The position numbers were made by a program, and so were the translations under genes. A stretch of DNA of 64,000 nt. Source: Vibrio crassostreae (GTDB lineage: Bacteria; Pseudomonadota; Gammaproteobacteria; Enterobacterales; Vibrionaceae). Under the pieces are notes generated by a model. The model had not been told where the DNA came from. It saw only the letters and a program-made list of their open reading frames with translations, and did no database searches. Shown here one piece after another: positions 1 through 18,975 of this stretch (positions are counted from its first letter, which is position 1; every line of letters begins with the position of its first letter). The DNA is taken from assembly GCF_024347415.1 (NCBI RefSeq), contig NZ_AP025476.1, positions 3,100,001-3,164,000 of the forward strand, read 5' to 3'.

Positions 1-251
1 TTTTGAACCTTGGTATCGATATACAGGCTGTCATCTTTAAACTGAACGTTATTAAGCGTAAAGCTTGGGAAAAGTGCCCCTTTGGTACTTTCCACTTTAA
101 GTTGTGGCAACGCTTTCTCTGCGCCCCACAGCACAGTGTTCAACCCTGGATTGGTAAACAAAACAAAACCTAGCAGGGCTATCAACAACAGCAAAATAGA
201 CGTCAATGAAATCGACGTCCACTTGATGCACTTGCCCACTACTTTGATCAT
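1..251 (-). CDS. tamB: Translocation and assembly module subunit TamB, N-terminal part (runs off the window)
   Basis: Only about the first 83 codons are present, and the gene continues beyond the left edge. The N-terminus has basic residues followed by one hydrophobic segment (about residues 12-32), the signal anchor expected of TamB. TamB is a long periplasm-spanning AsmA-like protein that works with TamA in outer-membrane protein and lipid transport. The ATG overlaps the tamA stop by 4 bases (ATGA), so the two are translationally coupled. Identification rests on this context and on the N-terminal anchor; the diagnostic C-terminal DUF490 domain lies outside the window. Confidence 0.88.
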   Translation of the reverse strand, partial: MIKVVGKCIKWTSISLTSILLLLIALLGFVLFTNPGLNTVLWGAEKALPQLKVESTKGALFPSFTLNNVQFKDDSLYIDTKVQ

Positions 252-1960
252 AATTCTGGTCCTAAACTAAAGTGCAGTTGGAACTCATCGCCTTTCTTAG
301 CATCTAGACCCCAAGCAAAGTCTAAACTCACTGGGCCAACAGGAGAGGCCCACCGTACCCCGACTCCGGTACCGTGCTTCCAATCTGGCTTGTCATTGAA
401 TGCATCACCAATGTCGTAGAATGCCGCCCCCCACCAGTTTCCAACCAAACGGTATTGGTATTCAAACGAACTGGTTGCCATGAATTTTGCACCCGTTAGT
501 GCGCCACTTTCATCGCGAGGAGAGATAGACTCATAACCATAACCACGGATACTGTTGTCACCACCGGCAAAGAACCTTAGCGAGGGAGACAGCTTCTCAA
601 ACTCGTCTGCAAAGTTACCGCCGAATTGAAGGCGAGTTAAACCACGATGGTTATTGCCAATACTTCGTATCCATGCCGTTCGCCCTTGAAAACGTACCAC
701 CTTGGTTTCAGATAACAATGTGTCATCAGCCGCCTCAAACATAATGGTTTGTTTATCGCCCCACATCGGCATCGAACCGCCTCGTGTTCGAGTTCGTGAG
801 AACGAGATCCCCGGCAATACAAATTGTGCTAAATCGTCTTGTAAACCTTGCTCATAGTTTTCGACCAAGTACCGAATGAATACCGTGCGCTGCCAGCCAT
901 TATCCAGACGCCAATACCTTTCTAAGGCTAAATTTGATTCCAAACTTTTGGTATCTCGGTTATCTAAGTTCTTCATACCGTACTTAACTTGATAGTAGTC
1001 ATTAAGTACGTCATCCAATGGGATTTTATACGCCGCCGTAATCGTCTGTTCAGGCTTAGAAATCGACAAGCTACTATTGAAGCTATGGCCTTTTTCGTTA
1101 ACCCAAGGTTTTTTCCATTTAAGAGTGCCTTTCACACCAAGGTCTGTTGAGACACCGATACCCGTTTCGATTTGGTTACGAGCTTGTGGAGCAAGGCTAA
1201 CCTTCATCGGAATCTCTCTGCCCTCACCCAACTGGCTTAAATCAGGCTCAACAAATACCGACGAGAACCAATCAGTATTAGATAGATTTTGGTTGTACTC
1301 ACCAACTTTGGTAATGGAGTAAGGTTCGCCATCTTTAAATGGTTTGAGTGACTGCACCTTATCCTCTTCTATTTGGCTACCAGTAACCTGAGTGGTACCA
1401 AAGTGATAGCGAATACCACTGTTATAATGAAGACGAACATAAGCGCGGTTTAATTCAGGGGCGACTTCTAGCTTACTGAGGTCATATGCCCCATCAAAAT
1501 AGCCTTTCGCTAATCCAAGATTACGTATCGACGATTTCAAAGAGTCATAATTACCATGGTTCAAGATTGAACCTTTAGACAGCTTACTCTTAGCGATCAA
1601 CGCTAGAAAGTCTGGGTCATCTTTGGCTTCACCCGTCAGAACGATATCGGAAGCATAAATAATAACAGGCTCTCCCGACTCAACCGTAACGGTCAACTCG
1701 GTATCATCTTCGGAGTGAGTAAATGTGATAACAGGTTGGTAGTAGCCTAACGCATTCAGGGCTTCTTTAATCATAGATTCCAAGCGAGATTGGAACCTTA
1801 GTGAGATCGAATACTCTTCTTCAGGGATCGCACTCAGATAAGCATCAACATTATCCTCAAGCGCTCCATCCAGCCCTTTGATTTCAAGGGAAACGTCAGC
1901 GAAAGCGAGCGTCGATGACAGTAGAGTGCCAATCAGAACTGGTAAAGTTTTTCTTATCAT
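248..1960 (-). CDS. tamA: Outer-membrane translocation and assembly module protein TamA
   Basis: A 570-residue Omp85/BamA-superfamily protein. It has a signal peptide (residues 1-21, cut after AFA), periplasmic POTRA repeats over roughly residues 22-260, then a 16-strand beta-barrel domain. The conserved FFAGGDNSIRGYGYES stretch near residue 470 corresponds to the barrel RGY motif of this superfamily. The C-terminus ends in the amphipathic strand QLHFSLGPEL. TamA sits in the outer membrane and partners TamB, whose gene starts in its stop codon. The gene is divergent from msrA across a 195-base spacer. The family length in E. coli is about 577, so the gene appears complete. Confidence 0.95.
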   Translation of the reverse strand: MIRKTLPVLIGTLLSSTLAFADVSLEIKGLDGALEDNVDAYLSAIPEEEYSISLRFQSRLESMIKEALNALGYYQPVITFTHSEDDTELTVTVESGEPVIIYASDIVLTGEAKDDPDFLALIAKSKLSKGSILNHGNYDSLKSSIRNLGLAKGYFDGAYDLSKLEVAPELNRAYVRLHYNSGIRYHFGTTQVTGSQIEEDKVQSLKPFKDGEPYSITKVGEYNQNLSNTDWFSSVFVEPDLSQLGEGREIPMKVSLAPQARNQIETGIGVSTDLGVKGTLKWKKPWVNEKGHSFNSSLSISKPEQTITAAYKIPLDDVLNDYYQVKYGMKNLDNRDTKSLESNLALERYWRLDNGWQRTVFIRYLVENYEQGLQDDLAQFVLPGISFSRTRTRGGSMPMWGDKQTIMFEAADDTLLSETKVVRFQGRTAWIRSIGNNHRGLTRLQFGGNFADEFEKLSPSLRFFAGGDNSIRGYGYESISPRDESGALTGAKFMATSSFEYQYRLVGNWWGAAFYDIGDAFNDKPDWKHGTGVGVRWASPVGPVSLDFAWGLDAKKGDEFQLHFSLGPEL

Positions 1961-2155
1961 GTTTAATTGGTGAAGAAGTTATCAATACGTTAATAAGTGA
2001 AAAGAAATAATACCGCTAAATAGGCATTGAGTCTGTAATAAATCCTGGAATAACACGGTCTAATTTAAAGACTTATTCAATATTGACCAACAGTTAATAT
2101 GAACCCATGTTAAATAAAAGCCAGCGCGGTAAACGTATGCGAAAAGGAATATAAC

Positions 2156-2785
2156 ATGCTAAACAAACAACAACTGGTTTCTGCAGCAACCGCATTACCG
2201 GGAAATGCTGACCCAATTCGAATTACTGAGCGCCATTTCGTCAATCAAACTGACCTGCTCGATGCGCCTACGAGTTCTCAACAAGAAGTCCTACTTGGTA
2301 TGGGATGCTTCTGGGGAGCTGAGCGCTTGTTTTGGCAATTGGATGGCGTTATTTCAACATCCGTTGGTTACGCTGGCGGATACACTGTTAACCCCACTTA
2401 TGAACAAGTATGTACTGGACAAACTGGCCATACCGAAGTCGTTCGTGTCATTTTCGATAGCGAACAAACCTCTCTAGCTCGAATACTTGAAACCTTTTGG
2501 GAGCGTCATGACCCAACTCAAGGGATGCGCCAAGGCAACGATTTAGGGACTCAATACCGTTCCGCGATTTACACCTTCAGTGAAGAACAACAATCTATCG
2601 CTGAGCACTCTAAACGTGAATATCAACGAGCAATGACTGAATCATTAGGCAACGAGATCACGACGGAAGTTCTGCCTGCTGGAAAATATTTTTTCGCAGA
2701 AACCTACCACCAGCAATACCTAGCTAAAAACCCGAATGGTTATTGCGGGTTGGGTGGAACCGGTGTCTGCTTCCCTCCACAATAA
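2156..2785 (+). CDS. msrA: Peptide-methionine (S)-S-oxide reductase MsrA
   Basis: Reduces the S-epimer of methionine sulfoxide in free or protein-bound methionine, using thioredoxin. The catalytic GCFWGAE motif is present with the nucleophilic Cys at residue 51. Two C-terminal cysteines (197 and 205, in [13 protein letters not shown]) are the resolving and recycling residues of the long MsrA type. The length of 209 aa is close to E. coli MsrA (212). AAGGAATATAAC precedes the ATG as ribosome-binding site. Divergent from tamA, convergent with ytfK, and the same tam-msrA-ytfK grouping occurs in E. coli. A shared terminator follows. Confidence 0.96.
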
Positions 2786-2822
2786 AGCGCCGTTCGACAT
2801 ACCAGCGAGAACGACACGCATT

Positions 2823-2850
2823 AAAAAGGGCTTCCATTAGGAAGCCCTCT
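2823..2850. terminator. Bidirectional terminator between msrA and ytfK
   Basis: Perfect 8-bp stem GGGCTTCC/GGAAGCCC with loop ATTA (2828-2847). It has an A-run on its left, which reads as a T-run for minus-strand transcripts, and a CTCTTC tail on the right. It best serves ytfK on the minus strand and probably also msrA. Confidence 0.8.
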
Positions 2851-2893
2851 TCATTGTTAATCTATTCGGTGCAAACAAATCGATAAAGCGCAG

Positions 2894-3094
2894 TTACACC
2901 GGCAACGCAGCAATCGTGCCGTTAACTTCTTTAAAAATAGTGAGCTTTTGTTTGTCTGAAACTTCAGGAAGAAGCACCTTGCCTTGGTCGAAGCGAAACT
3001 CTCCGACACCTTCGATAGCAAATTGGCCCTTGAACAGGACTTTAACGAAACGCGCCACCTGATGTGGACGGTAAGTAGAAAATTTTCTTAACAT
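2894..3094 (-). CDS. ytfK: YtfK / DUF1107 family protein
   Basis: A 66-residue cytoplasmic protein aligning along its whole length with E. coli YtfK (68 aa). Shared features are the N-terminal xxFxxYxPxQVAxxVKxLFxG block and the central VGxFxFDxGKxLxPxVxDK block. In E. coli YtfK stimulates (p)ppGpp accumulation through SpoT under phosphate or fatty-acid limitation; whether that holds here is inference. GAGG lies upstream of the ATG. It is adjacent to msrA as in E. coli, except that the ytfL gene found between them there is missing. Confidence 0.85.
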   Translation of the reverse strand: MLRKFSTYRPHQVARFVKVLFKGQFAIEGVGEFRFDQGKVLLPEVSDKQKLTIFKEVNGTIAALPV

Positions 3095-3346
3095 AATACA
3101 ACCTCAATTCCATTTGAGTACTACAGTCACACACCTGAACACCACCGTATTCGAAGCACATTTAATCGCTAATTCCTTTAGCAAACAGCAAGATAATCTA
3201 TTGTTCATCTTGATATTGATGCATTATACCTTTTGGTAACAAGCCTGCAACTTATTTCTACATCGTACGATAAAAAAGTTAAAGAGGCATTTTTCAAATT
3301 TCATATTATACTTCCAGTGCAAACCAATAAGCGGAACAAAAATATA

Positions 3347-3898
3347 ATGAAAAACAAAACTCTACTGGCTTTTTTAGCCGCAGCCTCTCCACTCTTCGCC
3401 AATGCTCACAATCTATCTGTAGGTTCAACTCTGCCTGCTGTTGATGTTAGCAACTATGGTGAAATCGTTCTAAACGACGGTAATACCGGATATCAAACTT
3501 GGGCAACCAGCAACCTCCTAGGTAAAGTTCGCGTCGTTCAAGCTATCGCTGGCCGTAGCAGCTCTAAAGAGCTAAACGCACCATTGATGGCAGCCATTAC
3601 CGCCTCGAAGTTCTCAGAAGACAGCTACCAAACCACCACCATCATCAACCAAGATGATGCTATCTGGGGTACGGGTTCTTTTGTTAAATCGTCAGCAGAA
3701 AGCAGCAAAGAAGAGTTTCCATGGTCTTCTATGGTGTTAGACGAAGATGGCACCGTCGCTTCATCTTGGGCTCTGAAAGAAGAGAGCTCGGCGATTATCG
3801 TTCAAGATAAACAAGGGAAAATCTTGTTTGTGAAAGAAGGCGCACTTAACGAATCAGAGGTCACGCAAGTTATTGAATTGATTAAAGCGAGTCTTTAA
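3347..3898 (+). CDS. ytfJ: YtfJ family periplasmic thioredoxin-fold protein
   Basis: A 183-residue protein with a signal peptide (KNKTLLAFLAAASPLFANA, cut before HNLS) and a YtfJ domain (residues about 22-180). The longer in-frame reading from 3233 is rejected because the signal peptide begins at the internal ATG at 3347. The fold is thioredoxin-like but no CxxC pair is present, so a redox role is doubtful. E. coli YtfJ has the same size and sits in the same neighbourhood, next to ytfK. Function unknown. The Zur-regulated zinc operon begins immediately downstream. Confidence 0.85.
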   Translation: MKNKTLLAFLAAASPLFANAHNLSVGSTLPAVDVSNYGEIVLNDGNTGYQTWATSNLLGKVRVVQAIAGRSSSKELNAPLMAAITASKFSEDSYQTTTIINQDDAIWGTGSFVKSSAESSKEEFPWSSMVLDEDGTVASSWALKEESSAIIVQDKQGKILFVKEGALNESEVTQVIELIKASL

Positions 3899-3934
3899 TC
3901 AGATATTCACCTCTTTTTCGAGATCTTATCAAAG

Positions 3935-3959
3935 GATATTGTTATATTATAACAGTATC
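3935..3959. promoter_or_regulatory. Zur box (zinc uptake regulator operator)
   Basis: A 25-bp near-perfect palindrome centred on 3947. The core GTTATATTATAAC matches the gamma-proteobacterial Zur consensus GTTATANTATAAC, and the flanks GATATT/AGTATC are almost complementary. It lies 30 bases upstream of the first gene of the zinc operon. It contains TATATT/TATAAC strings that could be the -10 element, so Zur bound with zinc would block transcription directly. The promoter position is inferred. Confidence 0.88.
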
Positions 3960-3988
3960 CTTTTTTTATTCTGTGGTTAATCATCCTG

Positions 3989-4279
3989 ATGTGGCAAGAC
4001 ATACCCAACAATGTGAAACGCAAAACAGGCTTCTTGCTTGGGCTGATGCTCATGCTAAGCGTGTTAGCAGCAACACACATGGTGGACATTGACCCAGAGC
4101 ACCACACTTCGCATCACTGTGAGTTGTTTTCAATAAATCAGTTCATTACGGCACACTCGCTGCCACAAGTTCCAGAGTTTCATTCAGAGTTTACTGCCGT
4201 TATCACAGAATCAGTAACCTCACTACAGCGGCTATATTTCGCTTACTTGGCACGCTCACCTCCTGTAAATATCGCTTAA
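3989..4279 (+). CDS. DUF2607-type small membrane protein, first gene of the Zur-regulated operon
   Basis: A 96-residue protein with one hydrophobic segment (about residues 13-29, LGLMLMLSVLAA) followed by a His/Cys-containing stretch (HMVDIDPEHHTSHHCELF) that could bind zinc outside the membrane. It is the first gene after the Zur box and 42 bases before the His-rich protein, so it is probably part of the zinc uptake system. I recall this as a Vibrio-restricted DUF2607 family of unknown biochemical role. The ribosome-binding site before the ATG is poor, so the exact start is less certain. Confidence 0.7.
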   Translation: MWQDIPNNVKRKTGFLLGLMLMLSVLAATHMVDIDPEHHTSHHCELFSINQFITAHSLPQVPEFHSEFTAVITESVTSLQRLYFAYLARSPPVNIA

Positions 4280-4321
4280 TTACCACTACTTTTTAATTAA
4301 CCTTTATTCAGGAAACAAAAC

Positions 4322-5122
4322 ATGAAACCTTCTATTTTAGCCGTTGTTATCGGCATGACTGTCTCTACAAATGTTCTAGCTAACGAAGAATTCCGCTCTC
4401 ATGATGCACACGTACATGGTCAAGTTGAAGTAAACATAGCGCAAGATGGGCAAGAACTGCTTGTTGAAGTAACAGCGCCAGGTGCCGATGTGGTTGGCTT
4501 TGAACATGCTCCAGAAACCGCTGAGCAAAAGAAAGTGTTTGAACAAGCTATCGCACAACTGAACAAGCCAGACGAACTGTTTAGCTTTAACAATGCGAGC
4601 TGTACTCTGAAATTTAAATCAGTGACTAACACGCTAGAAGGCGATCATGATGAACATGAAGGCCATGATCACGCTGAACACGGTCATGATGACCACGAAG
4701 GCCATGACCACGCTGAGCACGATCATGACGACCACAAAGACCATCACCATGCTGAACACGATCATGATGACCACGAAGGCCATGACCACGCTGAACATGA
4801 TCATGATGACCACAAAGACCATGACCATGCTGAACATGATCATGACGACCACAAAGACCATGACCACGCTGAACACGATCATGACGACCATGAAGGTCAC
4901 GATCACCACGACCATGAAGGCCATGATCACTCACAAGGTGGCCACGGTGAGTTCACTGTTGAGTACCACTATGAATGTTCAGATGTTGCTAAGCTAGACA
5001 CAGTTAGCACTCAGTGGTTCTCTAAGTTCAGCAACACTGAAAAAATGACGGTGAACCTACTAACAGACACAGCTCAAGTACAAGAAGTACTTAACGCAGA
5101 GCGTATTAGTTTCCGATTCTAA
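4322..5122 (+). CDS. zrgA: His-rich periplasmic zinc-binding protein, DUF2796 / ZrgA type
   Basis: A 266-residue secreted protein with signal peptide MKPSILAVVIGMTVSTNVLA. Residues about 22-105 and 215-266 form the conserved DUF2796 parts, including HDAHVHGQVEVNIA near the N-terminus. Between them lies a tandem array of 13-residue units (consensus HAEHDHDDHEGHD) extremely rich in His and Asp, suited to capturing zinc. It corresponds to V. cholerae ZrgA, part of a second zinc importer beside ZnuABC. CAGGAAAC is the ribosome-binding site. Placement in the same Zur-controlled operon as an ABC transporter supports a substrate-binding or zinc-chaperone role. Confidence 0.85.
   Translation: MKPSILAVVIGMTVSTNVLANEEFRSHDAHVHGQVEVNIAQDGQELLVEVTAPGADVVGFEHAPETAEQKKVFEQAIAQLNKPDELFSFNNASCTLKFKSVTNTLEGDHDEHEGHDHAEHGHDDHEGHDHAEHDHDDHKDHHHAEHDHDDHEGHDHAEHDHDDHKDHDHAEHDHDDHKDHDHAEHDHDDHEGHDHHDHEGHDHSQGGHGEFTVEYHYECSDVAKLDTVSTQWFSKFSNTEKMTVNLLTDTAQVQEVLNAERISFRF
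4647..4935 (+). repeat. In-frame 39-bp tandem repeats coding the His-rich region of ZrgA
   Basis: About seven imperfect 39-bp copies encode the 13-aa unit HAEHDHDDH(E/K)(G/D)HD. The copies differ mostly at GAA GGC versus AAA GAC and at synonymous third positions, so the array is in frame and likely to vary in length between strains. Confidence 0.85.
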
Positions 5123-5153
5123 TCACTCCCAGATCGGATTAAACGTAAATAAG

Positions 5154-5183
5154 CAGCCAAGTAAGTACCTACTTACTTGGCTG
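5154..5183 (+). other. Strong stem-loop between zrgA and the ABC transporter genes
   Basis: A perfect 13-bp inverted repeat, CAGCCAAGTAAGT/ACTTACTTGGCTG, with a 4-base loop. No T-run follows, so it is not a standard terminator. Its position inside the operon suggests stabilisation of the upstream zrgA mRNA or attenuation before the transporter genes. Confidence 0.7.
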
Positions 5184-5262
5184 TTCAAATCGGTGTGCTC
5201 TAGGGAATTTATACTTCTAATTGCTGTCCAGTAGATACACCGCTTTAATTATTGGAGCTCGC

Positions 5263-5979
5263 ATGCCCTCTGACAGTTCATCACTTGTGGTCAAACTCGA
5301 AAATATTAGCTTTCGTTGGAAGCCTGAATTACCGCCAACGCTAGAGATCCCTTCTCTGCACATCCAAGCTCAAGAGCACCTTTTCATAAAAGGGCCAAGT
5401 GGTTGTGGGAAATCAACATTGTTAGGCCTGCTGACTGGAATCAACCAAGCCGAACAAGGTGAAGTCTCTATCTTAGGCCAAGACCTGACTCAGCTTACAC
5501 CTCGTCAAAGAGACAAATTCAGAGCCGACCATATAGGTTATATCTTCCAACAATTTAACCTGCTCCCTTACTTATCAGTAATCGACAACGTGACGCTTCC
5601 TTGCCAGTTCTCAGCTATTCGCAAGCAACAAGTAACGGAAAGTAAGAACAGCCTGCAAGCAACCGCTCAAGATTTATTATTACGACTAAAGCTACCTCAA
5701 GCCTTAATGGATAAACCTGTTACTGAGCTGAGTATTGGCCAACAACAACGTGTTGCTGCCGCTCGTGCTTTGATCGGCCAACCCAAAATCATTATTGCCG
5801 ACGAACCAACCTCGGCTTTAGATCATGACAACCGAGAAGCTTTTATCGAACTGTTGCTAGAACAGGCCAATCAAGCGGGCTCGACGCTTATCTTTGTGAG
5901 TCACGATCCAACACTCGAAAAGTTGTTCACTCGAACCATAGATTTAAAAACCGTTAACCAAGCTAAGGTTGTCGTATGA
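5263..5979 (+). CDS. ABC transporter ATP-binding protein, LolD/MacB type, of the zinc uptake operon
   Basis: A 238-residue ATPase. Walker A is GPSGCGKS (residues 44-51), the Q-loop region is YIFQQFNLLPYLSVIDNV, the ABC signature is the variant LSIGQQQR, Walker B is IIIADEPTSALD, and the switch His is in VSHDP. The start is set at ATG 5263, behind GGAG, rather than the upstream TTG. It belongs to the MacB/LolD (FtsE-like) subfamily and not to the ZnuC type. It overlaps the permease gene by ATGA, so the two form one transporter, presumably ZrgB/C-like; I am not sure which letter applies. Confidence 0.88.
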   Translation: MPSDSSSLVVKLENISFRWKPELPPTLEIPSLHIQAQEHLFIKGPSGCGKSTLLGLLTGINQAEQGEVSILGQDLTQLTPRQRDKFRADHIGYIFQQFNLLPYLSVIDNVTLPCQFSAIRKQQVTESKNSLQATAQDLLLRLKLPQALMDKPVTELSIGQQQRVAAARALIGQPKIIIADEPTSALDHDNREAFIELLLEQANQAGSTLIFVSHDPTLEKLFTRTIDLKTVNQAKVVV

Positions 5980-7235
5980 AAGTAATTACTCACTTAGCCT
6001 TAAAAAGCGTACTCAATCGTAAAGCCACGGCTATTCTGACTATTCTTACCGTGGCGGTGTCTGTCATTCTCTTGCTCGGTGTAGAGCGCGTAAGAACCGA
6101 AGCCAAGAGCAGCTTTGCGAATACCATTTCAGGTACAGACCTTATCGTCGGTGGCCGTTCTGGTCAGGTAAACCTACTGCTTTACTCAGTATTCAGAATC
6201 GGTAATGCGACCAACAACATCGACTGGAAAAGCTACCAAGAATTTAGCCAGCACAACGCAGTAAAGTGGGCGATCCCAATCTCATTGGGCGATTCACACA
6301 AAGGCTTCCGCGTGATGGGTACAAATCATAGTTACTTTGAAAACTATCGCTATGGAAGTAAGCAGTTACTTACTTTCCAACAAGGTAAAGAATTTGAACA
6401 GCTATTCGATGTAGTGATTGGTGCCGATGTCGCTAAGAAACTGGATTACAAAATCGGTGACCAGATCATTCTTGCACACGGTATCAGCGATGTGGCGTTC
6501 AGCCGTCACGATAATCTGCCCTTCAAGATTGTCGGAATACTTGCACCAACAGGAACGCCGGTAGACAAGACCGTTCATGTTTCGTTAGAGGCTATTGAAG
6601 CGATTCATGTTGGCTGGGAGTCAGGTGCCAACCTAGGACACACACCGGATGCCGAAACCTTAAAGACTTTTGATTTCCAACCGAAGCAGATTACCGCAAT
6701 GATGCTCGGGCTGAATTCGAAGATCCAAACCTTCGCACTGCAAAGAGAGATCAATAACTACCGTCAAGAACCTTTGAGCGCCATTATGCCGGGCATTGCC
6801 CTTCACGAATTGTGGGGAATGATGGCTGTAGCAGAACAAGCATTGTTAATTGTTTCAGGATTTGTTGTTGTCGCCGGTTTATTGGGCATGCTCAGTAGCC
6901 TACTCACTAGTTTGCAAGAAAGGCGTCGCGAGATGGCGATCCTGCGTGCGATGGGCGCAAGACCTCGCCATGTGTTTGGTTTACTGATCAGTGAAGCCAG
7001 TGCGCTGACCTTCCTTGGCATTACATTAGGTGTTGCGGTGTTATTTGCGCTGATCGCAGTGGTTGCTCCTATTGTGCAACAAAGTTATGGTATCAACATA
7101 TCGATATCCGCAATCACACCTCATGAGTGGAAACTGCTTATGCTGGTCCAAGTTGCCGGAATCATTATCGGCTTTATTCCCGCTTTCAGGGCTTACCGCC
7201 AGTCATTGTCTGATGGCATGACGATTCGAATCTAA
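5976..7235 (+). CDS. FtsX-like (MacB/LolC type) ABC permease of the zinc uptake operon
   Basis: A 419-residue inner-membrane protein. One transmembrane segment lies near residues 18-38, followed by a large periplasmic MacB-PCD-like domain (about 40-275). Three C-terminal segments of the FtsX fold follow, with the typical motif SSLLTSLQERRREMAILRAMGA between the second and third. Such four-helix permeases usually drive extracytoplasmic work (mechanotransmission) rather than classic import, which makes its pairing with a zinc-binding protein unusual. Translationally coupled to the ATPase gene by a 4-base overlap. Confidence 0.87.
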   Translation: MKVITHLALKSVLNRKATAILTILTVAVSVILLLGVERVRTEAKSSFANTISGTDLIVGGRSGQVNLLLYSVFRIGNATNNIDWKSYQEFSQHNAVKWAIPISLGDSHKGFRVMGTNHSYFENYRYGSKQLLTFQQGKEFEQLFDVVIGADVAKKLDYKIGDQIILAHGISDVAFSRHDNLPFKIVGILAPTGTPVDKTVHVSLEAIEAIHVGWESGANLGHTPDAETLKTFDFQPKQITAMMLGLNSKIQTFALQREINNYRQEPLSAIMPGIALHELWGMMAVAEQALLIVSGFVVVAGLLGMLSSLLTSLQERRREMAILRAMGARPRHVFGLLISEASALTFLGITLGVAVLFALIAVVAPIVQQSYGINISISAITPHEWKLLMLVQVAGIIIGFIPAFRAYRQSLSDGMTIRI

Positions 7236-7249
7236 AATAGGAACCTACG

Positions 7250-7765
7250 ATGCAACGCAAATTCCTACTGATACTTGGGCTACTTCTGTTCCCATTTATC
7301 AGTACAGCTCACGCTGAAACCACTCAGAATGACGAATCGGTATTAACACTTGAATGGATTGATTTGATTCCAGAATCAGAGCGCGCTCAACTAGATTCAT
7401 TTGGTATGCCAATGGTTGACCACAATAGTATGGACAAACCTCAACAATCGACACTTGGTGCTGTTCGCCCAGAGCTAAATGGCAGCACAGTGAAGATTCC
7501 AGGCTTTGTGATTCCATTGGAAGGTGATGAGAATATGATCACTGAGTTTCTGCTGGTACCGTACTTTGGCGCATGTATCCACGTGCCACCGCCGCCACCG
7601 AACCAAATCATCTACGTGAAGTTCCCGAAAGGTGCGCCAATACAGCAGTTATGGGATGTAATTTATTTAGTCGGTACGCTAAAAACTGAGTCGATCAGCC
7701 ATGACTTAGCGCAAACAGGTTATCTTATTGAAGGTACTGCGATTGAAGAATATGACGACATGTAG
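7250..7765 (+). CDS. DUF3299 domain secreted protein, last gene of the zinc operon
   Basis: A 171-residue protein with a signal peptide (MQRKFLLILGLLLFPFISTAHA) and a DUF3299 domain. The domain includes the block KIPGFVIPLEGDENMITEFLLVPYFGACIHVPPPPPNQIIYV. The Cys-x-His pair with flanking acidic residues could bind metal. DUF3299 proteins often accompany MacB-like transporters and DUF2796 proteins. It starts 14 bases after the permease and so belongs to the operon; a Zrg accessory role is inferred. Confidence 0.82.
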   Translation: MQRKFLLILGLLLFPFISTAHAETTQNDESVLTLEWIDLIPESERAQLDSFGMPMVDHNSMDKPQQSTLGAVRPELNGSTVKIPGFVIPLEGDENMITEFLLVPYFGACIHVPPPPPNQIIYVKFPKGAPIQQLWDVIYLVGTLKTESISHDLAQTGYLIEGTAIEEYDDM

Positions 7766-7855
7766 TCATTAGAAGGGTGGCTCAAGGATGAGCTGCCGTC
7801 ACTGAACGAGTGAGATCATTCAATAACAGTTTAATAACGATAATTTTCTTCTGAA

Positions 7856-7960
7856 TTACGCGATGTAATTAGATAAGTAAGCTAGAACAGCAACATAAGT
7901 CGCGAGCAATAACCCTATACTGAGCTGTTTCTTCAGCTTGTTATCATTGACTTGATTCAT
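7856..7960 (-). CDS. Hypothetical 34-aa small membrane protein
   Basis: A short ORF starting MNQVNDNKLKKQLSIGLLLA and ending YVAVLAYLSNYIA. It has a polar, lysine-bearing N-terminus and one hydrophobic helix (residues about 14-34). The ATG is preceded by an almost ideal Shine-Dalgarno, AAGGAGGAG, four bases upstream of the start, which is the main reason for the call. It lies in the 351-base space between the DUF3299 gene and the TIGR03899 gene, on the opposite strand to both. I recognise no family. It could be a regulatory small membrane protein or a conserved orphan. Confidence 0.6.
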   Translation of the reverse strand: MNQVNDNKLKKQLSIGLLLATYVAVLAYLSNYIA

Positions 7961-8116
7961 AACTCCTCCTTGAGAATTACAACAAATTTAACATTTTATT
8001 ATCATTAGCAAAAGTAAAATTTTGTTGAAACCTTCAACTCTGCACGCAAAATCTAGCCACCAATCAGATAAAGAGTTACATTTTAGACAGTTAAGTCGTT
8101 TCCTTAGGATACTCTT

Positions 8117-9025
8117 ATGTCAGAAACCAAACAGCCAGTGATCATCGAGCATGCTAGCGATACACAGCACAAGCATGAGAAAAAGCCTCATATTGCCGAC
8201 AGTGCCAGCAGAATGCTGCACATCGCACAAAGCTTCGGCCTCGATTCCTTAATTAGTCACAATGCAAAGCCAAACGATAAAGGTGAGAGTACCCTTATCG
8301 AACGGGCACTATTGCGAGAGAAAAAACGTAGAGAGCTTCGCCAAAAGAACCTAGAACAGATTCTAAAGTTGGCGCACTCTTCATGTAAGGATGAAGCGGC
8401 GGGCGACCCGGATCAGGACTGGCTGTACCGCTTTTTCGATATGGCACAAGAGATCCACAATACATCGATGCAAAGGCTATGGGCTCAAGTACTGAAACGA
8501 GAAGTCACTAACCCAGGCTCAACGTCGATGAAGGCGCTTCAGATCTTAAAAGACATGACGCCAAAGGAAGCACTGACCCTACAAAGAGCGGCATCACTGG
8601 GTTGTAGCTTTGGTAGCGATAACAGCAGAAAGCTCTTACTCGGCTTCAAATCTCATGCAGGGCTGTTCAGCTTTGGTAAAAGAGACACCACCAACACCAT
8701 CAACCTTGGTGGGCATAACCTTCCCTACTCTAGCCTGCTCCATTTGATTGAACTCGGGATTATTCTCGGCACTGAGTTAGAGTCTGGAGAAATTGATTTC
8801 GATCCAGCTCTGCACCTAACCTATCAAGGTAAAAGTATGTCACTGGCACCGTTATCAAAAGGGGTGAAGCTGGTTTACTACCGATTCAGCCCAACAGGTA
8901 ATGAGCTTTGTACCTTGCTTGGCAACAAGCCAAACACACAGTATTACGACCAGCTGATTGCACTATTGAGCCAGAAATTCACGGTTCAGACAGAAGTGAA
9001 AAGCAGCGTGAATTACACCGTCTAG
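8117..9025 (+). CDS. TIGR03899 family protein of unknown function
   Basis: A 302-residue soluble protein without a signal peptide. An N-terminal low-complexity region (His/Lys) is followed by a basic helix, ERALLREKKRRELRQKNLEQIL. Then comes a conserved block containing GDPDQDWLYRFFDMAQEIHN and MQRLWAQVLKREV. The DQDWL-FFDMA-WAQVL arrangement is what I associate with the TIGR03899 family found in vibrios and relatives. No catalytic motif is evident. The gene stands alone, with an upstream region rich in A+T and AGG before the start, and is convergent with the sulfate-activation operon. Confidence 0.7.
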   Translation: MSETKQPVIIEHASDTQHKHEKKPHIADSASRMLHIAQSFGLDSLISHNAKPNDKGESTLIERALLREKKRRELRQKNLEQILKLAHSSCKDEAAGDPDQDWLYRFFDMAQEIHNTSMQRLWAQVLKREVTNPGSTSMKALQILKDMTPKEALTLQRAASLGCSFGSDNSRKLLLGFKSHAGLFSFGKRDTTNTINLGGHNLPYSSLLHLIELGIILGTELESGEIDFDPALHLTYQGKSMSLAPLSKGVKLVYYRFSPTGNELCTLLGNKPNTQYYDQLIALLSQKFTVQTEVKSSVNYTV

Positions 9026-9119
9026 ATAATAGAGTTTAAGAAATAGACGGTGTAAAAAGTGAAGTGGATTGAGAAGAATAAAGAGAATATAGAGGATAGG
9101 TTTCTTGTCTCGGTAAACC

Positions 9120-9173
9120 AAGGCTGTATTACTTATCAGTTATGAACAAACCGATAAGCAAGTGGACAGCCTT
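9120..9173. repeat. Nested inverted repeat at the convergent ends of the TIGR03899 gene and cysC
   Basis: Two arm pairs are nested: AAGGCTGT (9120-9127) with ACAGCCTT (9166-9173), and CTTATC (9132-9137) with GATAAG (9153-9158). The resulting cruciform-like hairpin lies just after the cysC stop on the minus strand. It may end transcription in one or both directions, although no strong T-run follows. Confidence 0.6.
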
Positions 9174-9189
9174 AATCATACCAACGATC

Positions 9190-9810
9190 TCAATTGGCTA
9201 AAATATTTCGCTTCTCCAACGCATCAATACACAGTTCAACCAATTCATCGAGCGTCTTCTCACCTGCGGGTAGATCAACCTCAGGGTTCTGAGGCGCTTC
9301 GTACACTGAACTAATACCTGTAAAGTTCGAGATCTCTCCGGCACGTGCTTTCTTATACAGACCTTTAGGATCACGCTGTTCGCAAACCTCTAATGGCGTA
9401 TTGACGAACACCTCCAGAAACTCACCTTCCGGCAGTAAGTCACGTACCAACTGTCTTTCTGCTTGGTGCGGAGAAATAAAGGCTGACAACACGATCAAGC
9501 CTGCATCCGCCATCAATTTAGCGAGTTCACCAATACGACGGATGTTCTCTCTACGATCCTGCTCAGAGAAGCCAAGGTCACTACATAATCCATGACGCAC
9601 ATTGTCGCCATCCAATAAGTAAGTATGGTAACCAAGCTGTGCCAAGCGATTTTCTAATGCGCCAGCGACTGTCGATTTACCAGAACCAGACAACCCCGTG
9701 AACCAGAGCACAGCTGGCTTTTGTGATTTCAGATCCGCGCGAAATGTTTTATCAATCGAGTGTTGATGCCACACAACATTCTCATCTTTTGGTTTGAGTA
9801 CTGCGGTCAT
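9190..9810 (-). CDS. cysC: Adenylylsulfate kinase CysC
   Basis: Phosphorylates adenosine 5'-phosphosulfate to PAPS with ATP, the second step of sulfate activation. The P-loop GLSGSGKST is at residues 39-47. The APS-binding blocks [17 protein letters not shown] and [13 protein letters not shown] follow, with [22 protein letters not shown] further on. At 206 aa it is close to E. coli CysC (201). It is the last gene of cysD-cysN-SLC13-cysC, 24 bases after the permease, with AAAGGAC as ribosome-binding site. Confidence 0.97.
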
Positions 9811-9834
9811 AATTAGTCCTTTAAATAAACAGCA

Positions 9835-11559
9835 TTAAAATGGGAAAAAATAAGGAATTAGGGTCAATACCAAACCCGAATAAACAATCGAGATTGGAAT
9901 ACCAATACGTAGGTAATCCGTAAGATGGTAATTACCTACGCTATAAACTAGTAAGTTGGTTTGGTAGCCGTATGGAGAAATGAAACTAGCACTGGCACCA
10001 AATAGTACCGCCATGATAAACGGCATGGGATCGACGCCATAGCCTACCGCCATGCTGTAACCAATAGGAAATGAAAGTGCTGCAGCCGCATTATTGGTAA
10101 CAAGCTCAGTCAGAACCAAAGTCATAAAGTAAGTCGCAACTAACGCGCCGAACACGCCCCAACCATTAAAGGCCTCCATGAACATCAACCCCATGCGCTC
10201 AGATAGTCCTGATGAAATCATCAGTTGAGCAATAGACAGCGCAGAGCCCACGATCACCACAATATCAACCGGAAAACGGCGACGAAGTTCACCAAGTTGT
10301 ACCACGCCAAATGCCACCAGCAATAGTAAGAAACCAGCTAAGCCTTTGATAATAGGTACTACATCAACAAGAGCAAGGCCAATTACGCTAGCAAAGCCGA
10401 GCAACACAAACGTCGATTTATCGGCATCAAGCTTGGCACTCGAATCTAAGTCATTCATCAACACAAACTCTTTGTTGTGTTGTTGGCGCTGTTCTTCAAA
10501 GCGTTTACCGGGAACCAAAATCAAGGTATCACCAGCGGTCAATGTGATATTCCCTAACCCACCTTCAAGGCGTTCATGACCACGACGAATAGCAACCACA
10601 ACTGCATCGAAACGGTCTCTAAACTGGCTGGTTTTCAGTGTTTTGTTACAAAAGCTTGCCGATGAACTCACCACAACTTCAACGAAGCTCTGACCATTCA
10701 AATGGTGCTGACCAAACAGAGTCAGTCCTTGGATTTCTTGCAGTGTCGCCACGCTCTCGACATCACCACAAAACAGCAATCGGTCACGAGCTTGAAGAAT
10801 AAAATCAGGGTCAATCGAAGCCGTGGTTTTACCGTCGCGAATCACTTCCGCTAAGAACAGTTTTCTCAATGCTCGGAGGTTATTTTCACTGACACTACGA
10901 CCAACTAACGGTGAACCTGGCTCAACTCTGGCTTCTAAGAAGTAAGGCAGATCATCTTGGGAACCATCATCGTAGCTTGGTAAGAAGTAACTCAGAGGGA
11001 TAAGGATCAACACGCCACCGACCAAGACCGCTAAACCGATCAAGGTTGGTGTGAAAAAGTTTAAACTCGGCAGTCCGGCATCTTCAACAAAGCTATTGAT
11101 GATCAAATTAGTTGAAGTGCCGATCAATGTCAGCGTTCCACCTAAGATGGCAGCGTATGACAGAGGGATAAGCAGTTTAGATGGCGCATGTTGTTGATTA
11201 CGTTTGATCGCCCCGATCAAAGAAACAACCACCGCTGTGTTATTAGTAAAAGAAGAAAGTAACGCTGTGGAAATACCTAACTTCGCAACCACAGTACCTA
11301 GCCTACCTTCAGAGATATTGCGGCTAACCCAGCTGATTAAGCGAGTTTTCTCCAACGCACTTGATGCGAGGATCAGAAGAATTAAAGTCAGTAATGAGGA
11401 GTTAGTGAAATTATTGGCTAAGCTCGACAAGTCGATCATACCAGCCATAAAAGCAATAAACGCCGCACCAGCAAAAATAAAGCTTGGCTTAATACGGGTA
11501 ACGAGCAGGCAAGTAATAATGCCGAGCAAAATCGCTAATACAAATCCTTGTTGCCACAT
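9835..11559 (-). CDS. SLC13-family permease with two TrkA-C (RCK_C) domains, probable sulfate transporter
   Basis: A 574-residue inner-membrane protein. N-terminal helices occupy residues 1-200, two soluble TrkA-C domains lie at about 205-370, and further helices follow to the C-terminus. The paired sequences SSFTNNTAVVVSLIGA and ELVTNNAAAALSFPIGY carry the TNN motifs at the substrate and sodium sites of the DASS/SLC13 fold. The gene lies between cysN and cysC in the sulfate-activation operon, so sodium-coupled sulfate uptake is the most likely role. This is inferred from context; related proteins carry dicarboxylates or tellurite. Confidence 0.85.
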   Translation of the reverse strand: MWQQGFVLAILLGIITCLLVTRIKPSFIFAGAAFIAFMAGMIDLSSLANNFTNSSLLTLILLILASSALEKTRLISWVSRNISEGRLGTVVAKLGISTALLSSFTNNTAVVVSLIGAIKRNQQHAPSKLLIPLSYAAILGGTLTLIGTSTNLIINSFVEDAGLPSLNFFTPTLIGLAVLVGGVLILIPLSYFLPSYDDGSQDDLPYFLEARVEPGSPLVGRSVSENNLRALRKLFLAEVIRDGKTTASIDPDFILQARDRLLFCGDVESVATLQEIQGLTLFGQHHLNGQSFVEVVVSSSASFCNKTLKTSQFRDRFDAVVVAIRRGHERLEGGLGNITLTAGDTLILVPGKRFEEQRQQHNKEFVLMNDLDSSAKLDADKSTFVLLGFASVIGLALVDVVPIIKGLAGFLLLLVAFGVVQLGELRRRFPVDIVVIVGSALSIAQLMISSGLSERMGLMFMEAFNGWGVFGALVATYFMTLVLTELVTNNAAAALSFPIGYSMAVGYGVDPMPFIMAVLFGASASFISPYGYQTNLLVYSVGNYHLTDYLRIGIPISIVYSGLVLTLIPYFFPF

Positions 11560-11624
11560 ATACCCGTCCTTTATGGCGGAAACGATCGGTTTCCGCCTGA
11601 TTCAATAAGCTGTTACTTAGTCGT

Positions 11625-13055
11625 TTATGACTTCAGTAGTTGGCTTAAATCTTTGGCATCCCAATGAGGGAAATGCTTGCGAACCAATGCGTTGAACTCA
11701 AGTTCAAATGCAGAGAAGTTACCCACTTGCTGTTCAACAGAGTCCAAACGGTCTCGAATCAAACCTGCGCCAACCGTCACGTTAGTTAGACGGTCGATAA
11801 CGATGAAGCCACCGGTATCGGCACTTTCACGGTATTTATCCAGCGCAACTGTCTCGTTCAATGACCATTCACACAAGCCAATGCCATTAAGTGGCAACTC
11901 ATCAACGGCGTGAGTCGACAGGTTGTTGATGTCGTATTGGTGACGAACGGTTTCAACCTGACCGACGGTTTTCTTGCCTGCGATCTTGATGTCATAAGCT
12001 TTGCCCGGTTGTAGTGGTTGCTCTGTCATCCACACGATGTCAGCCAATACGTGGTTAGTAGATTCAATCTGAGCGTTTTCCAACACAATCAAATCACCAC
12101 GGCTGATGTCGATCTCATCTTCAAGGGTCAGCGTTACCGCCAAGCCCGCTTGTGCAGATTCCAAATCACCATCAAAGGTCACGATACGTGCAACCTTAGA
12201 CGTTTTGCCTGACGGCAGTGCTTTGATTTCGTCACCAACACTTACACGGCCAGAGGCCACTGTGCCTGCAAAGCCACGGAAATCTAAGTTCGGACGATTC
12301 ACATACTGCACAGGGAAACGGAATTCTCCCGCAGAACGCTTTTGATCAATATCGACGTTCTCTAACACTTCCAGTAGAGATGGACCTTCGAACCATGCTA
12401 GCTCTTTACTTGGTGCAGCAACGTTGATGCCTTCAAGCGCCGAAACTGGCAGGATCTGAATGTTAGTTTCGCCTTCTAGGTTTTCAGCAAACTCTAGGTA
12501 TTCATCGCGAATCTCTTCAAAACGATCTTGTGAATATTCCACGAGATCCATCTTGTTGACTGCAACGATGAAATGCTTCAAACCAAGCAAGTTAGAAATA
12601 AACGAGTGACGACGCGTTTGATCCAGTACGCCCTTACGAGCATCAATCAAGATCACCGCCAGATCACACGTTGAAGCGCCTGTAGCCATGTTGCGCGTGT
12701 ACTGCTCATGCCCAGGGGTATCAGCAATAATGAATTTACGTTTTTGCGTCGAGAAGTAGCGGTAAGCGACATCGATCGTGATGCCTTGCTCACGTTCAGC
12801 CTGCAAGCCATCAACAAGCAGTGCCAAGTCAGGCTTCTCACCTGTAGTACCCACTCGTTGGCTATCCGAGTGAACTGCGGCTAGCTGATCTTCATAAATC
12901 TGTTTTGTATCATGGAGCAAGCGACCAATTAGCGTACTTTTACCGTCATCTACTGAGCCACAAGTTAAAAATCTAAGCATAGATTTATGCTGATGCTGAC
13001 TTAGATAACCTTCAATCCCTAGTTCAGCCAATTCGGCTTCTACTGCACTATTCAT
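11625..13055 (-). CDS. cysN: Sulfate adenylyltransferase subunit 1, GTPase CysN
   Basis: The regulatory GTPase half of ATP sulfurylase, coupling GTP hydrolysis to APS formation by CysD. Translation-factor GTPase motifs are clear: GSVDDGKST (33-41), DTPGHEQY and NKMD. They are followed by EF-Tu-like beta-barrel domains 2 and 3. At 476 aa it matches E. coli CysN (475) and lacks the fused CysC kinase seen in NodQ-like forms, consistent with the separate cysC downstream. It starts 18 bases after cysD behind AAGGAAAG. Confidence 0.97.
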
Positions 13056-13073
13056 TTTTCTTTCCTTAGATTC

Positions 13074-13982
13074 TTAGAAATAACCTTGGCGCTTTTTCAG
13101 CTCCATAGAGCCTGACTGATCATGGTCAATCGCTCGACCTTGACGCTCACTAGACGTAGCCACCAGCATCTCTTCAATAATGCCTGTTAGCGTATTCGCC
13201 TCAGATTCAACCGCTCCGGTTAGTGGGTAACAGCCTAAAGTACGAAAACGAACGCTTTTCTCTTCAATCACTTCACCTTCTTGCAGCTCCATGCGGTCAT
13301 CATCAACCATGATAAGCATGCCATCACGCTCAACAACCGGGCGCTTGTCTGAAAGGTAAAGTGGAACAATATCGATGCTCTCTAGATAGATGTATTGCCA
13401 AATATCCAGTTCAGTCCAGTTTGATAATGGGAATACACGAATGCTTTCGCCCTTATTCACCTGACCGTTGTAGGTGTGCCAAAGCTCAGGACGCTGGTTT
13501 TTTGGATCCCATGTATGGTTCTTGTCGCGGAAAGAATAAACACGCTCTTTCGCTCGAGATTTTTCTTCATCACGACGCGCACCACCAAAAGCGGCATCGA
13601 ACCCGTACTTGTTTAACGCCTGCTTAAGGCCTTGAGTTTTCATGATGTCAGTGTGCTTAGAAGAACCATGTACGAACGGGCTACACCCCATCTCAATACC
13701 TTCTGGGTTCTTATGTACTAAAAGGTCGAAGCCGTACTTTTTCGCCGTACGATCACGAAACTCAATCATCTCGCGGAATTTCCAATCCGTATCAACGTGC
13801 AATAGTGGGAATGGAATCTTGCCTGGATAAAACGCTTTGCGAGCTAAATGAAGCATCACAGAAGAATCTTTACCGATGGAGTACATCATCACTGGGTTAT
13901 CAAACTCAGCAGCAACTTCACGGATAATATGAATACTTTCCGCTTCAAGCTGTTTTAGGTGGGTTAAACGTTCTTGGTCCAT
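13074..13982 (-). CDS. cysD: Sulfate adenylyltransferase subunit 2 CysD
   Basis: The catalytic subunit of ATP sulfurylase, forming APS from sulfate and ATP. It is a PP-loop ATP pyrophosphatase protein with the modified P-loop [17 protein letters not shown] near residue 36 and the family blocks [16 protein letters not shown] and [14 protein letters not shown]. Its 302 aa equal E. coli CysD. First gene of the operon. CTTAAAGGAAG precedes the ATG, and a small hairpin (14001-14015) sits just upstream of that site. CysB control is expected from the pathway, but I cannot assign a CysB site. Confidence 0.97.
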
Positions 13983-14432
13983 TTCAGTGCTTCCTTTAAG
14001 GCTCGCAGTACGAGCAATTCATTACTTGGTCTTGCCAAGCAAGGGATTTAACTCATCCACTTGAGTGAATGGGAGTATTGGCACTAGAAGAAAACAGAAG
14101 CTTCATTTTGAGCTATCCTTGCTATTCATCTGCCTGATACGTCCTTGATATAGGCATTATGACGAGCCTCTCATATTACTGGAAATTCTAAAATTTCATT
14201 TTTTATTCGAAAAGCTGATAAGGGATGAGATTCATCGATAAATAGGTGAAATGAATGGACTAATACTATCGATGTGATTTGTACATTGATTGAGCAGGTT
14301 TGGGAGGCGTCTTGCAGAACACCATAAAGTAATCGATCTAAGTCACGAATTAACATTCGTTGTAATCATTGTTTCATTCGGTTTTGTTACATTACGCAAC
14401 GAATTTTCTACTATCCACTTTGGAGCTACAAA
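13983..14432. other. 450-base divergent regulatory region between cysD and cpdB
   Basis: No credible gene is present; the one 61-codon reading frame (14171-14356) has no ribosome-binding site. Small hairpins lie at 14001-14015 (GCTCG/CGAGC) and 14025-14039 (CTTGG/CCAAG) in the cysD leader. The region must hold the cysD and cpdB promoters, but I see no confident -35/-10 pair or regulator box. Confidence 0.5.
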
Positions 14433-16409: not shown

Positions 16410-16442
16410 ATTACCCAGTAATCCATAGTTAGCATTCTGATA

Positions 16443-16476
16443 GGCTGAGTTTAACGACTCAGCCATTTTCTTTTGT
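16443..16476 (+). terminator. Terminator after cpdB
   Basis: Stem GGCTGAGT/ACTCAGCC with loop TTAACG (16443-16464), followed by ATTTTCTTTTG. Confidence 0.82.
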
Positions 16477-16644
16477 TATTCAGAAATCAACTCCACCGCC
16501 CTACTTTTCTCACCGTAAACTCCCGCTAATTCAACACCCAAACAGCACGACTCACACCGTCAATCGATTTAAACCCCCACAAAAAAACACTAATCCGCTG
16601 TAAGTTTTTCTCTGCTCCTCCTGTCTATTTAATTTACTACACTC

Positions 16645-16670
16645 AATGAATGGCCAATAAGCCATTCATT
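16645..16670. repeat. 10-bp perfect inverted repeat in the dedA leader
   Basis: AATGAATGGC/GCCATTCATT with a 6-base spacer, ending 23 bases before the dedA start. It could be an operator for a dimeric regulator or an RNA hairpin in the 5' leader of the operon. Confidence 0.6.
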
Positions 16671-16693
16671 TATAGGATAGATAAGGACATTTG

Positions 16694-18411: not shown

Positions 18412-18430
18412 CTTTGTACGAGGATCATGA

Positions 18431-18973
18431 ATGAACCCCATAGCCCAACCGAGCGCCCTCACTTCTTTCTCTCCTAGTATCAAGGGAGCGGTAGAGATAT
18501 TGAATCAGGGTTTAGAGTTTTTGTTAGCGATATCTGACAGCGACTATCTGACACGAGCAAAGCCGCACGTCACAAGCTCTATTGGTGAGCATACTCGTCA
18601 CACGCTCGATCTTTTTCACGCTCTGATTTTAAAAGAGAATGCGACTGTTGATTACAACACTCGTCGTCGTGGCCACCCCGTCGAATTCGACAGGTCGATT
18701 GCGTTGAAAGAGATCCATTACGTGATCAACTGGCTTGAACGATTAGACCGCAGAGATCTTGAAGCGCCTATCATGATCCAAACCGAAGTTTCGATGGATA
18801 CACAAGTGTTCGCCAGCCTGCCTTCTACGCTAGAAAGAGAGGTTACCTTTGCTGCGCTGCACGCCAATCATCATTACGCGATGATCAAGGTGATCACCAC
18901 CTTCCTAGACATTGAAACCTGCAACACCTTTGGTTATGCCCCAACCACCAGTAGCTATCTGAGGGAGCAATAA
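18431..18973 (+). CDS. DinB-like (DUF664-type) four-helix protein
   Basis: A 180-residue protein predicted as a helical DinB/YfiT bundle. The three-histidine metal site typical of the superfamily can be proposed from SIGEHTRHTLDLFHAL near residue 55 and AALHANHHYAMIKV near 145. Such proteins are metal-dependent, often thiol-linked transferases or hydrolases; no substrate is evident. The start at 18431 follows a GAGG element, 19 bases after the ATP-grasp gene, and the NRDE gene begins two bases after its stop. Confidence 0.75.
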   Translation: MNPIAQPSALTSFSPSIKGAVEILNQGLEFLLAISDSDYLTRAKPHVTSSIGEHTRHTLDLFHALILKENATVDYNTRRRGHPVEFDRSIALKEIHYVINWLERLDRRDLEAPIMIQTEVSMDTQVFASLPSTLEREVTFAALHANHHYAMIKVITTFLDIETCNTFGYAPTTSSYLREQ

Positions 18974-18975
18974 CT

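Follow-up and report, generated by a model that had tools for sequence, protein, structure and literature searches.

A putatively Zur-controlled ZrgABCDE zinc operon of Vibrio crassostreae, with a three-histidine signature in its MacB-type permease and a putative ytfJ terminator around its operator

Introduction

The zinc operon analysed here lies in a window of 64,000 nucleotides from Vibrio crassostreae (contig NZ_AP025476.1, positions 3,100,001-3,164,000, forward strand, assembly GCF_024347415.1; all other coordinates are window-based), and its closest described counterparts are the ZrgABCDE system of Vibrio and the PA4063-PA4066 operon of Pseudomonas aeruginosa. In published work, the V. 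parahaemolyticus genes VP_RS01455-01475 are co-transcribed and rise about 76- to 206-fold in low zinc, Zur represses zrgA, and deletion of zrgA impairs growth under TPEN (N,N,N',N'-tetrakis(2-pyridylmethyl)ethylenediamine); the response of zrg transcription to zinc and Zur is shown there for V. parahaemolyticus and cited for V. cholerae (PMC9817125). In a znuA background of V. cholerae, zrgA is required for low-zinc growth; the structure of ZrgA has been solved, and ZrgB is described as a MacB-like permease with four transmembrane helices (PMC9820375).

In P. aeruginosa, PA4064/PA4065 have been modelled as MacB-type and proposed to form a pyochelin-cobalt exporter, and deletion of PA4065 in a znuA zrmB strain lowers low-zinc growth and raises a zinc-demand reporter (PMC11481552). 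No clear function emerged from the structures of PA4063 and PA4066 (PMC8561739), and a paper from 2015 considered the contribution of the PA4063-PA4066 proteins unclear (PMC4542158). The place of a MacB/LolC-type machine in zinc acquisition is therefore disputed between an importer, as in the Vibrio papers, and a pyochelin-cobalt exporter, as in P. aeruginosa. A preliminary description of our locus, made from the sequence without database searches, had called the system mechanistically poorly understood, and both sets of papers agree (PMC9817125, PMC9820375, PMC11481552, PMC8561739, PMC4542158). Because the operon, its control by zinc and Zur and the MacB-like permease fold already appear in this work, they are not new here; judged against a literature search only, the histidine signature, the cassette types and the nested terminator are.

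Results

Behind the Zur core, the genes follow in the order zrgD-zrgA-zrgC-zrgB-zrgE and span 3989-7765 (Table 1). ZrgA scores 287.8 bits against NF047873, well above its NCBIfam equivalog cutoff of 185, and ZrgC is about equally like LolD, DevA and FtsE, below the cutoffs of all three. The locus falls far short of LolCDE on the same type of cutoff (LolC/E, 52.2 of 362.45 bits; LolD, 164.3 of 307.75 bits), and it combines genes for an ATP-binding cassette (ABC) ATPase, an FtsX/MacB permease, and DUF3299, DUF2607 and ZrgA proteins with a Zur site upstream, as ZrgABCDE does. The closest named relatives of ZrgB, at 98-99% identity, come from V. splendidus, V. lentus, V. chagasii, V. crassostreae and other Vibrio. 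Judged by its sequence, the operon is the known ZrgABCDE zinc system, in a Vibrio close to V. splendidus. The preliminary description had named the five gene families, a Zur site ahead of them and the Vibrio Zrg system; all five open reading frames are present with the corresponding Pfam families (DUF2607, ZrgA, ABC_tran, MacB_PCD plus FtsX, DUF3299), the Zur core at 3940-3954 is exact, and the identification is supported by Pfam, NCBIfam and the published operons (PMC9817125, PMC9820375). Its wording of five tightly spaced genes fits zrgC-zrgB (4-nt overlap) and zrgB-zrgE (14 nt), with zrgD-zrgA at 42 nt, but not zrgA-zrgC, where a 140-nt gap carries a hairpin. No riboswitch or other known RNA was matched by Rfam at gathering thresholds at 3200-8200.

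ZrgB has the make-up of a type VII permease, with a MacB-like periplasmic core and a C-terminal FtsX domain, and its single-chain model (m960a3ba0e2ed) matches the MacB, LolE and heme-exporter fold; PF12704 and PF02687 were its only families, bearing out the earlier assignment to a MacB/LolC rather than a ZnuBC type. Within the periplasmic part, H168, H178 and H211 appear together in every family row but one (75 of 76) and in none of the 4 outgroup rows. The single exception, locus L235, reads RQQ or RQH depending on the alignment; 115 of its 120 listed relatives keep all three histidines, the departures being RQH (two, L235 itself and a close relative), HHR, HRQ and HEH (one each). In the alignments the three did not occur as a set in E. 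coli MacB, LolC, LolE or the nearest outgroup; LolE, in one of two alignments, shows a single histidine among these positions. ZrgB belongs to a wider permease family, new here, that is marked by a near-invariant periplasmic three-histidine set, and H168, H178 and H211 are likely to be a zinc landing site on ZrgB. A single gain of the signature was considered and set aside: 32 histidine-family rows as one clade were not rejected (approximately unbiased test, p = 0.81), but a free quick tree placed the outgroup inside the histidine family.

The membrane helices of ZrgB, by alignment, hold no metal-ligand residue that is both conserved and family-specific; the acidic residues E287, E315, E319 and E340 are conserved and are glutamates in MacB as well. 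These helices bear on whether ZrgBC is a true zinc importer, with ZrgA as its binding protein and zinc passing through a ZrgB dimer into the cytoplasm, a reading to which the requirement for zrgA in low-zinc growth lends itself (PMC9817125, PMC9820375). The shared glutamates speak against it, as do the solved relatives of the fold, which are exporters, lipoprotein extractors and signal transmitters, and the absence of a zinc difference upon PA4065 deletion (PMC11481552). Genome content counts in its favour. The V. crassostreae genome has PF00950 (ZnuB-type) matches elsewhere and no ZIP match, and among 33 genomes with DUF3299, PF00950 was matched in 25 and ZIP in 10 (7 over cutoff). Neither was matched in four (G044, G087, G143 and G185), other importer families not having been searched; zrgA, C, B and E are nevertheless present in G044 and G185, which are single contigs and 99-100% complete, and in G143 (99%). 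In family f47, which includes G044 and G185, DUF3299 occurs in 10 of 19 genomes, 8 of these without a PF00950 match (5 of the 8 at least 90% complete). The family divides into 2 genomes with both, 8 with DUF3299 only, 5 with PF00950 only and 4 with neither, counts too few to claim mutual exclusion of Zrg and ZnuB, an idea we dropped. Taken together, we regard a true importer as unlikely, yet as an alternative to be reckoned with. Since the helices lack family-specific conserved ligands, we think that ATP-driven periplasmic transfer of zinc is more likely than a classical zinc channel.

We then compared the gene neighbourhoods of related permeases, which fall into three cassette types with an ATPase, a permease and a ZrgE-like partner in common. 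ZrgE itself matches PDB entry 4hsp (9.6e-29), and its C109 is kept in all aligned rows shown except L072, with His or Cys following within three residues. The first type is zrgA-C-B-E. Group II (8 loci: L076-L078, L234-L238) comprises the ATPase, the permease and, in 7 of 8, a divergent DUF3299 protein related to ZrgE (hhalign 98%, E 2.8e-14), no ZrgE-like gene being found at L235; COG0523 GTPase genes lie nearby in 4 of 8 loci only. Group III (10 loci: L219-L228) encodes an alkaline phosphatase, confirmed as PF00245 in two loci, then a CPFC-containing ZrgE-like protein more weakly related to ZrgE (hhalign 65%, E 5.9e-5), the ATPase and the permease, in the same order and on one strand in all ten; one literature search found no paper on this cassette. 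None of the 18 group II and III loci shows ZrgA, and in 14 of them the permease loop after H211 holds six or more histidines (group II, 3 to 23, with six or more in 7 of 8; group III, six or more in 7 of 10), against two or fewer in 57 class I rows. On a quick tree each permease group forms one side of a branch (support 98, 91 and 99 for I, II and III).

Alkaline phosphatase is a zinc enzyme. Its constant place in the group III cassette raises the alternative that the machine serves to metallate zinc enzymes of the periplasm or secreted ones, growth effects being secondary. Neither the operon in the window nor the published zrg operons include such an enzyme, and loss of zrgA impairs growth under zinc chelation (PMC9817125); we consider this account improbable.

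Of 274 genomes of the class, 33 carry DUF3299; ZrgA was matched in 36, above its cutoff in 32. For 39 DUF3299 places, 35 regions were read, a set that excludes the window and its second DUF3299 place as well as one short contig and one place lying next to another; ZrgB was present in 31 and ZrgA in 20, some regions being cut by contig ends. A search of 398 Pseudomonadota genomes matched ZrgB-like permeases in 99, of which at least 3 have outgroup-type permeases only, and the family reaches at least one Bacteroidota protein (named Pedobacter). This distribution is far wider than that of pyochelin makers, and it counts against a MacB-type exporter of a metallophore, whether pyochelin-cobalt or another compound, as was proposed for PA4063-PA4066 from the MacB fold and the pyochelin and cobalt phenotypes in P. 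aeruginosa (PMC11481552). A phmmer search with E. coli MacA found no MacA-like gene beside zrg, adaptors elsewhere in the genome not being sought; it covered window positions 1-20000, 69 Vibrio loci and 86 related loci, about 30 of the latter shorter than 5 kb. The sole match in the scanned loci was weak (E 3e-5) and lay in group II locus L234. The histidine signature, in turn, points to bare metal. Pyochelin export as a general function was accordingly dropped as our leading reading, on grounds of distribution and signature, and a metallophore exporter is kept as a very unlikely rival.

Among the outgroup permeases, which lack the triad, loci L229 and L231 also hold a ZnuA match (PF01297) and L232 a near-identical gene; these FtsX-type permeases are possibly another metal-linked type VII branch. 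Two stand-alone DUF3299 genes were also observed. One lies in the V. crassostreae genome on another contig (L041:8909-9577; C2:1044932-1045477), encodes the same GACIH-PPPP motif and sits, by eye, between porin-like and amidohydrolase-like genes; its 18-kb locus lacks zrg ABC genes, and no Zur core was seen there even when up to 3 mismatches were allowed. The other (L046:3003-9678) appears, by eye, to lie in a zinc island whose further genes are ZnuA/ZnuB-like, Zur-like and TonB-receptor-like.

The second feature of the locus concerns its operator. The Zur core, TGTTATANTATAACA, is exact at 3940-3954 and is the sole match in the window at two or fewer mismatches (0.32 expected in shuffles). 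The stop codon of ytfJ precedes it by 41 nt, and at the level of sequence and folding positions 3931-3970, which enclose it, have the parts of an intrinsic terminator, a stable hairpin followed by a T-tract. We compared 57 Vibrio loci, retained from 69 named ones after removal of 9 that were too short upstream and 3 with a poor core (two of the 3 also without a measurable ytfJ gap). Where ytfJ and the core lie 62 nt or less apart, 38 of 41 loci have the hairpin, versus 1 of 16 with a longer gap; hairpin plus T-tract was present in 36 of 41 versus 0 of 16. The Fisher test for the hairpin (p = 3.5e-10) ignores kinship and is not to be taken at face value, because the gap class changes only 3 times on the tree; the association with a short gap is only suggestive. 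Most long-gap loci show another hairpin beside the ytfJ stop by eye, and a terminator scan of these loci found a hairpin with a T-tract near that stop in only 1 of 16.

Covariation was assessed in 34 rows (32 distinct), namely the window and 33 of the 41 short-gap loci, with 8 close relatives of the window left out. Over the nine outer pairs, 89.2% of cells pair and 75 cells are altered on both sides. Outer-stem covariation reached 0.756 versus 0.292 (standard deviation 0.026) in shuffles that do not preserve the relatedness of the rows, with 0 of 500 shuffles attaining it, and sliding the stem gave at most 0.271; the number of outer pairs altered on both sides, 8 of 9, was not distinct from shuffles (185 of 500). 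Across related Vibrio, then, the outer stem varies in sequence and keeps its pairing. Pairing beyond the Zur core extends by 9 pairs at zrg versus 2 at a ribA-like gene in the same genome; a third Zur-like site there, beside a ZnuC-like gene and a PF00950 match, extends by 1, and four Zur-like sites of other genomes by 0, 0, 1 and 4 (the last at L046).

These comparisons indicate that the outer arms of the 25-bp palindrome probably belong to a ytfJ terminator and not to Zur recognition. The preliminary description had taken the whole palindrome as a Zur site, of which the 15-bp core stands. When transcribed from ytfJ, 3931-3970 would form a hairpin and U-tract that end ytfJ transcripts; the zrg transcript, with a putative start at about 3955-3957, would leave out the 5' arm of the hairpin and hence escape termination. 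We consider it quite unlikely that the long palindrome is merely an extended Zur site with a coincidental hairpin and T-tract: palindromy is normal for Zur sites, the gap association rests on few changes and the L046 site is extended too, but outer stems that vary yet stay paired, and the short extensions at the other two Zur-like sites of the genome, argue otherwise.

Exact copies of the 13-bp inner core GTTATANTATAAC lie at two places genome-wide, the zrg locus and upstream of the ribA-like gene; cores with up to one mismatch were not enriched (13 places versus 24 with a reversed-pattern control, forward strand). The second exact core precedes L042:4818-5551, ribA-like by eye, and ribA is present in the Zur regulon table of V. 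parahaemolyticus (PMC9817125). ZrgD consists of a hydrophobic N-terminal segment followed by a His/Cys-containing region. A small Cys/His protein ending in RAPPL and resembling ZrgD in layout by eye is encoded at L062:10897-11313, with an exact Zur core before it and a TonB-receptor-like gene after it.

ZrgA is related to PDB entries 8ezw and 7ahw (4.7e-15 to 7ahw), and its His-rich loop of about 100 residues is encoded by tandem repeats. Its length ranges from 214 to 266 aa across 11 close relatives (L144, with a short reading, was excluded as a twelfth), a variation probably due to repeat number. The zrgA-zrgC gap was readable in 59 of 69 Vibrio loci; its best inverted repeat reached 10 pairs or more in 47 of these and 8 or more in 54, counted without a shuffle control. 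Hairpins of this kind are common where an operon has to supply more binding protein than transporter, and the one here would fit ZrgA being made in excess over the transporter.

Table 1 Features of the zrg locus in window coordinates
Feature	Position	Strand	Description
ytfJ	3347..3898	+	Gene upstream of operon; PF09695, TIGR01626
Terminator-like hairpin	3931..3970	+	15 pairs plus T-tract; encloses Zur operator; z -5.87 versus shuffles
Zur core	3940..3954	.	TGTTATATTATAACA, exact match
Putative extended -10 element	3940..3948	+	TGTTATATT, inside Zur core; inferred by reading the sequence
zrgD	3989..4279	+	DUF2607, 96 aa; PF10795, E 1e-12
zrgA	4322..5122	+	Periplasmic His-rich zinc-binding protein, 266 aa, 45 His; PF10986, NF047873
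Tandem repeat arrays	4630..4930	+	39 bp and 24 bp; encode ZrgA His-rich loop
zrgA-zrgC inverted repeat	5152..5185	+	13-bp hairpin
zrgC	5263..5979	+	LolD/DevA/FtsE-like ABC ATPase; ABC_tran
zrgB	5976..7235	+	Type VII (MacB/LolCE-fold) permease; PF12704 (MacB_PCD), PF02687 (FtsX)
ZrgB His168 codon	6477..6479	+	Near-invariant
ZrgB His178 codon	6507..6509	+	Near-invariant
ZrgB His211 codon	6606..6608	+	Near-invariant; precedes loop that is His-rich in many relatives
zrgE	7250..7765	+	Periplasmic DUF3299 protein; PF11736; relative of PA4066, PDB 4hsp
ZrgE Cys109-x-His111 motif	7574..7582	+	

Discussion

Our findings are best explained, with some reservation, by a Zur-repressed ZrgABCDE system for zinc acquisition that hands zinc over in the periplasm at the expense of ATP and whose operator is nested in a ytfJ terminator. 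Zinc-loaded Zur would sit on 3940-3954, over the putative -10 element, and block zrg transcription. ZrgA would collect periplasmic zinc through its structured sites and His-rich loop, binding having been shown for orthologs, and may pass it to the periplasmic domain of ZrgB at H168, H178 and H211, as their conservation suggests. ATP hydrolysis by ZrgC could then move this domain through the four-helix permease and so drive release or hand-over of zinc, with ZrgE as a presumed conserved adaptor. The preliminary description had suggested indirect mechanotransmission, which is plausible given membrane helices without a conserved family-specific metal ligand; it had missed the three-histidine signature and the terminator-like role of the palindrome.

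Several observations weigh against this explanation. Single deletions of zrgD or zrgE in V. cholerae had no growth effect (cited in PMC9820375), and in the znuA zrmB strain deletion of PA4065 increased cobalt with no change in total zinc (PMC11481552). Residues 171-180 of ZrgB have a mean predicted local distance difference test score of 62 in the single-chain model; 5 of 41 short-gap loci lack a hairpin plus T-tract; and a consensus promoter scan, which requires a -35 hexamer, gave no plus-strand promoter at the Zur core. Among the 120 listed relatives of L235, the permease loop holds six or more histidines in 33, 3-5 in 50 and two or fewer in 37, so the built-in His loop is a tendency, and it was rejected as a rule for the family. 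Finally, with zrg genomes that show neither a PF00950 nor a ZIP match, Zrg itself could carry zinc across the membrane; despite these genomes, we place hand-over somewhat ahead of passage through ZrgB.

The His-rich donor or loop, the near-invariant histidine set and the zinc-linked neighbours in three cassettes together favour zinc itself as the ligand of an ATP-driven type VII machine that handles it on the periplasmic side. More tentatively, and with less confidence than we place in the account of the operon, ZrgB may represent a zinc-dedicated type VII branch, defined by the three histidines, a ZrgE-like partner with a near-invariant Cys and a His-rich donor in the form of ZrgA or, for part of the relatives, the permease loop, that moves zinc among periplasmic proteins by ATP, one branch possibly onto alkaline phosphatase. 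If true, the machine would act as an ATP-driven metallochaperone rather than as a transporter in the classical sense. Cassettes whose permease has its own His loop, and those that include alkaline phosphatase, suggest that a larger family handles zinc. The near-invariant histidines offer three residues with which to separate zinc as ligand from a metallophore as ligand, and the nesting of an operator in a terminator-like hairpin illustrates how two adjacent genes could make use of the same short DNA segment.

Compared with known systems, the operon shares its five families with ZrgABCDE of V. cholerae and V. parahaemolyticus, and with the latter also the gene order (by locus tags) and a Zur site upstream of Zur-repressed zrgA (PMC9817125). 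What sets it apart from ZrgABCDE as published is that a terminator-like hairpin encloses the Zur core, as in most short-gap Vibrio loci; from V. cholerae it also differs in a ZrgA loop of about 100 residues, against the 61 residues removed in the V. cholerae loop mutant (PMC9820375). PA4063-PA4066 has equivalents of zrgA-C-B-E, as here; the published operon is without zrgD, and its authors read it as a pyochelin-cobalt exporter (PMC11481552). From MacB and MacAB-TolC the locus is set apart by an ATPase encoded separately from the permease (zrgC, zrgB) and by the lack of a MacA-like partner beside zrg, and E. coli MacB is without the three histidines of ZrgB. LolCDE, the heme exporter HrtBA and S. 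pneumoniae 5xu1 share 12-16% identity with ZrgB (three rows). It resembles ZnuABC, a Zur-controlled zinc ABC system whose binding protein often has a His-rich loop (PMC9820375), but the permease of ZnuABC is PF00950 and its binding protein PF01297, and zrgB is PF12704/PF02687 only.

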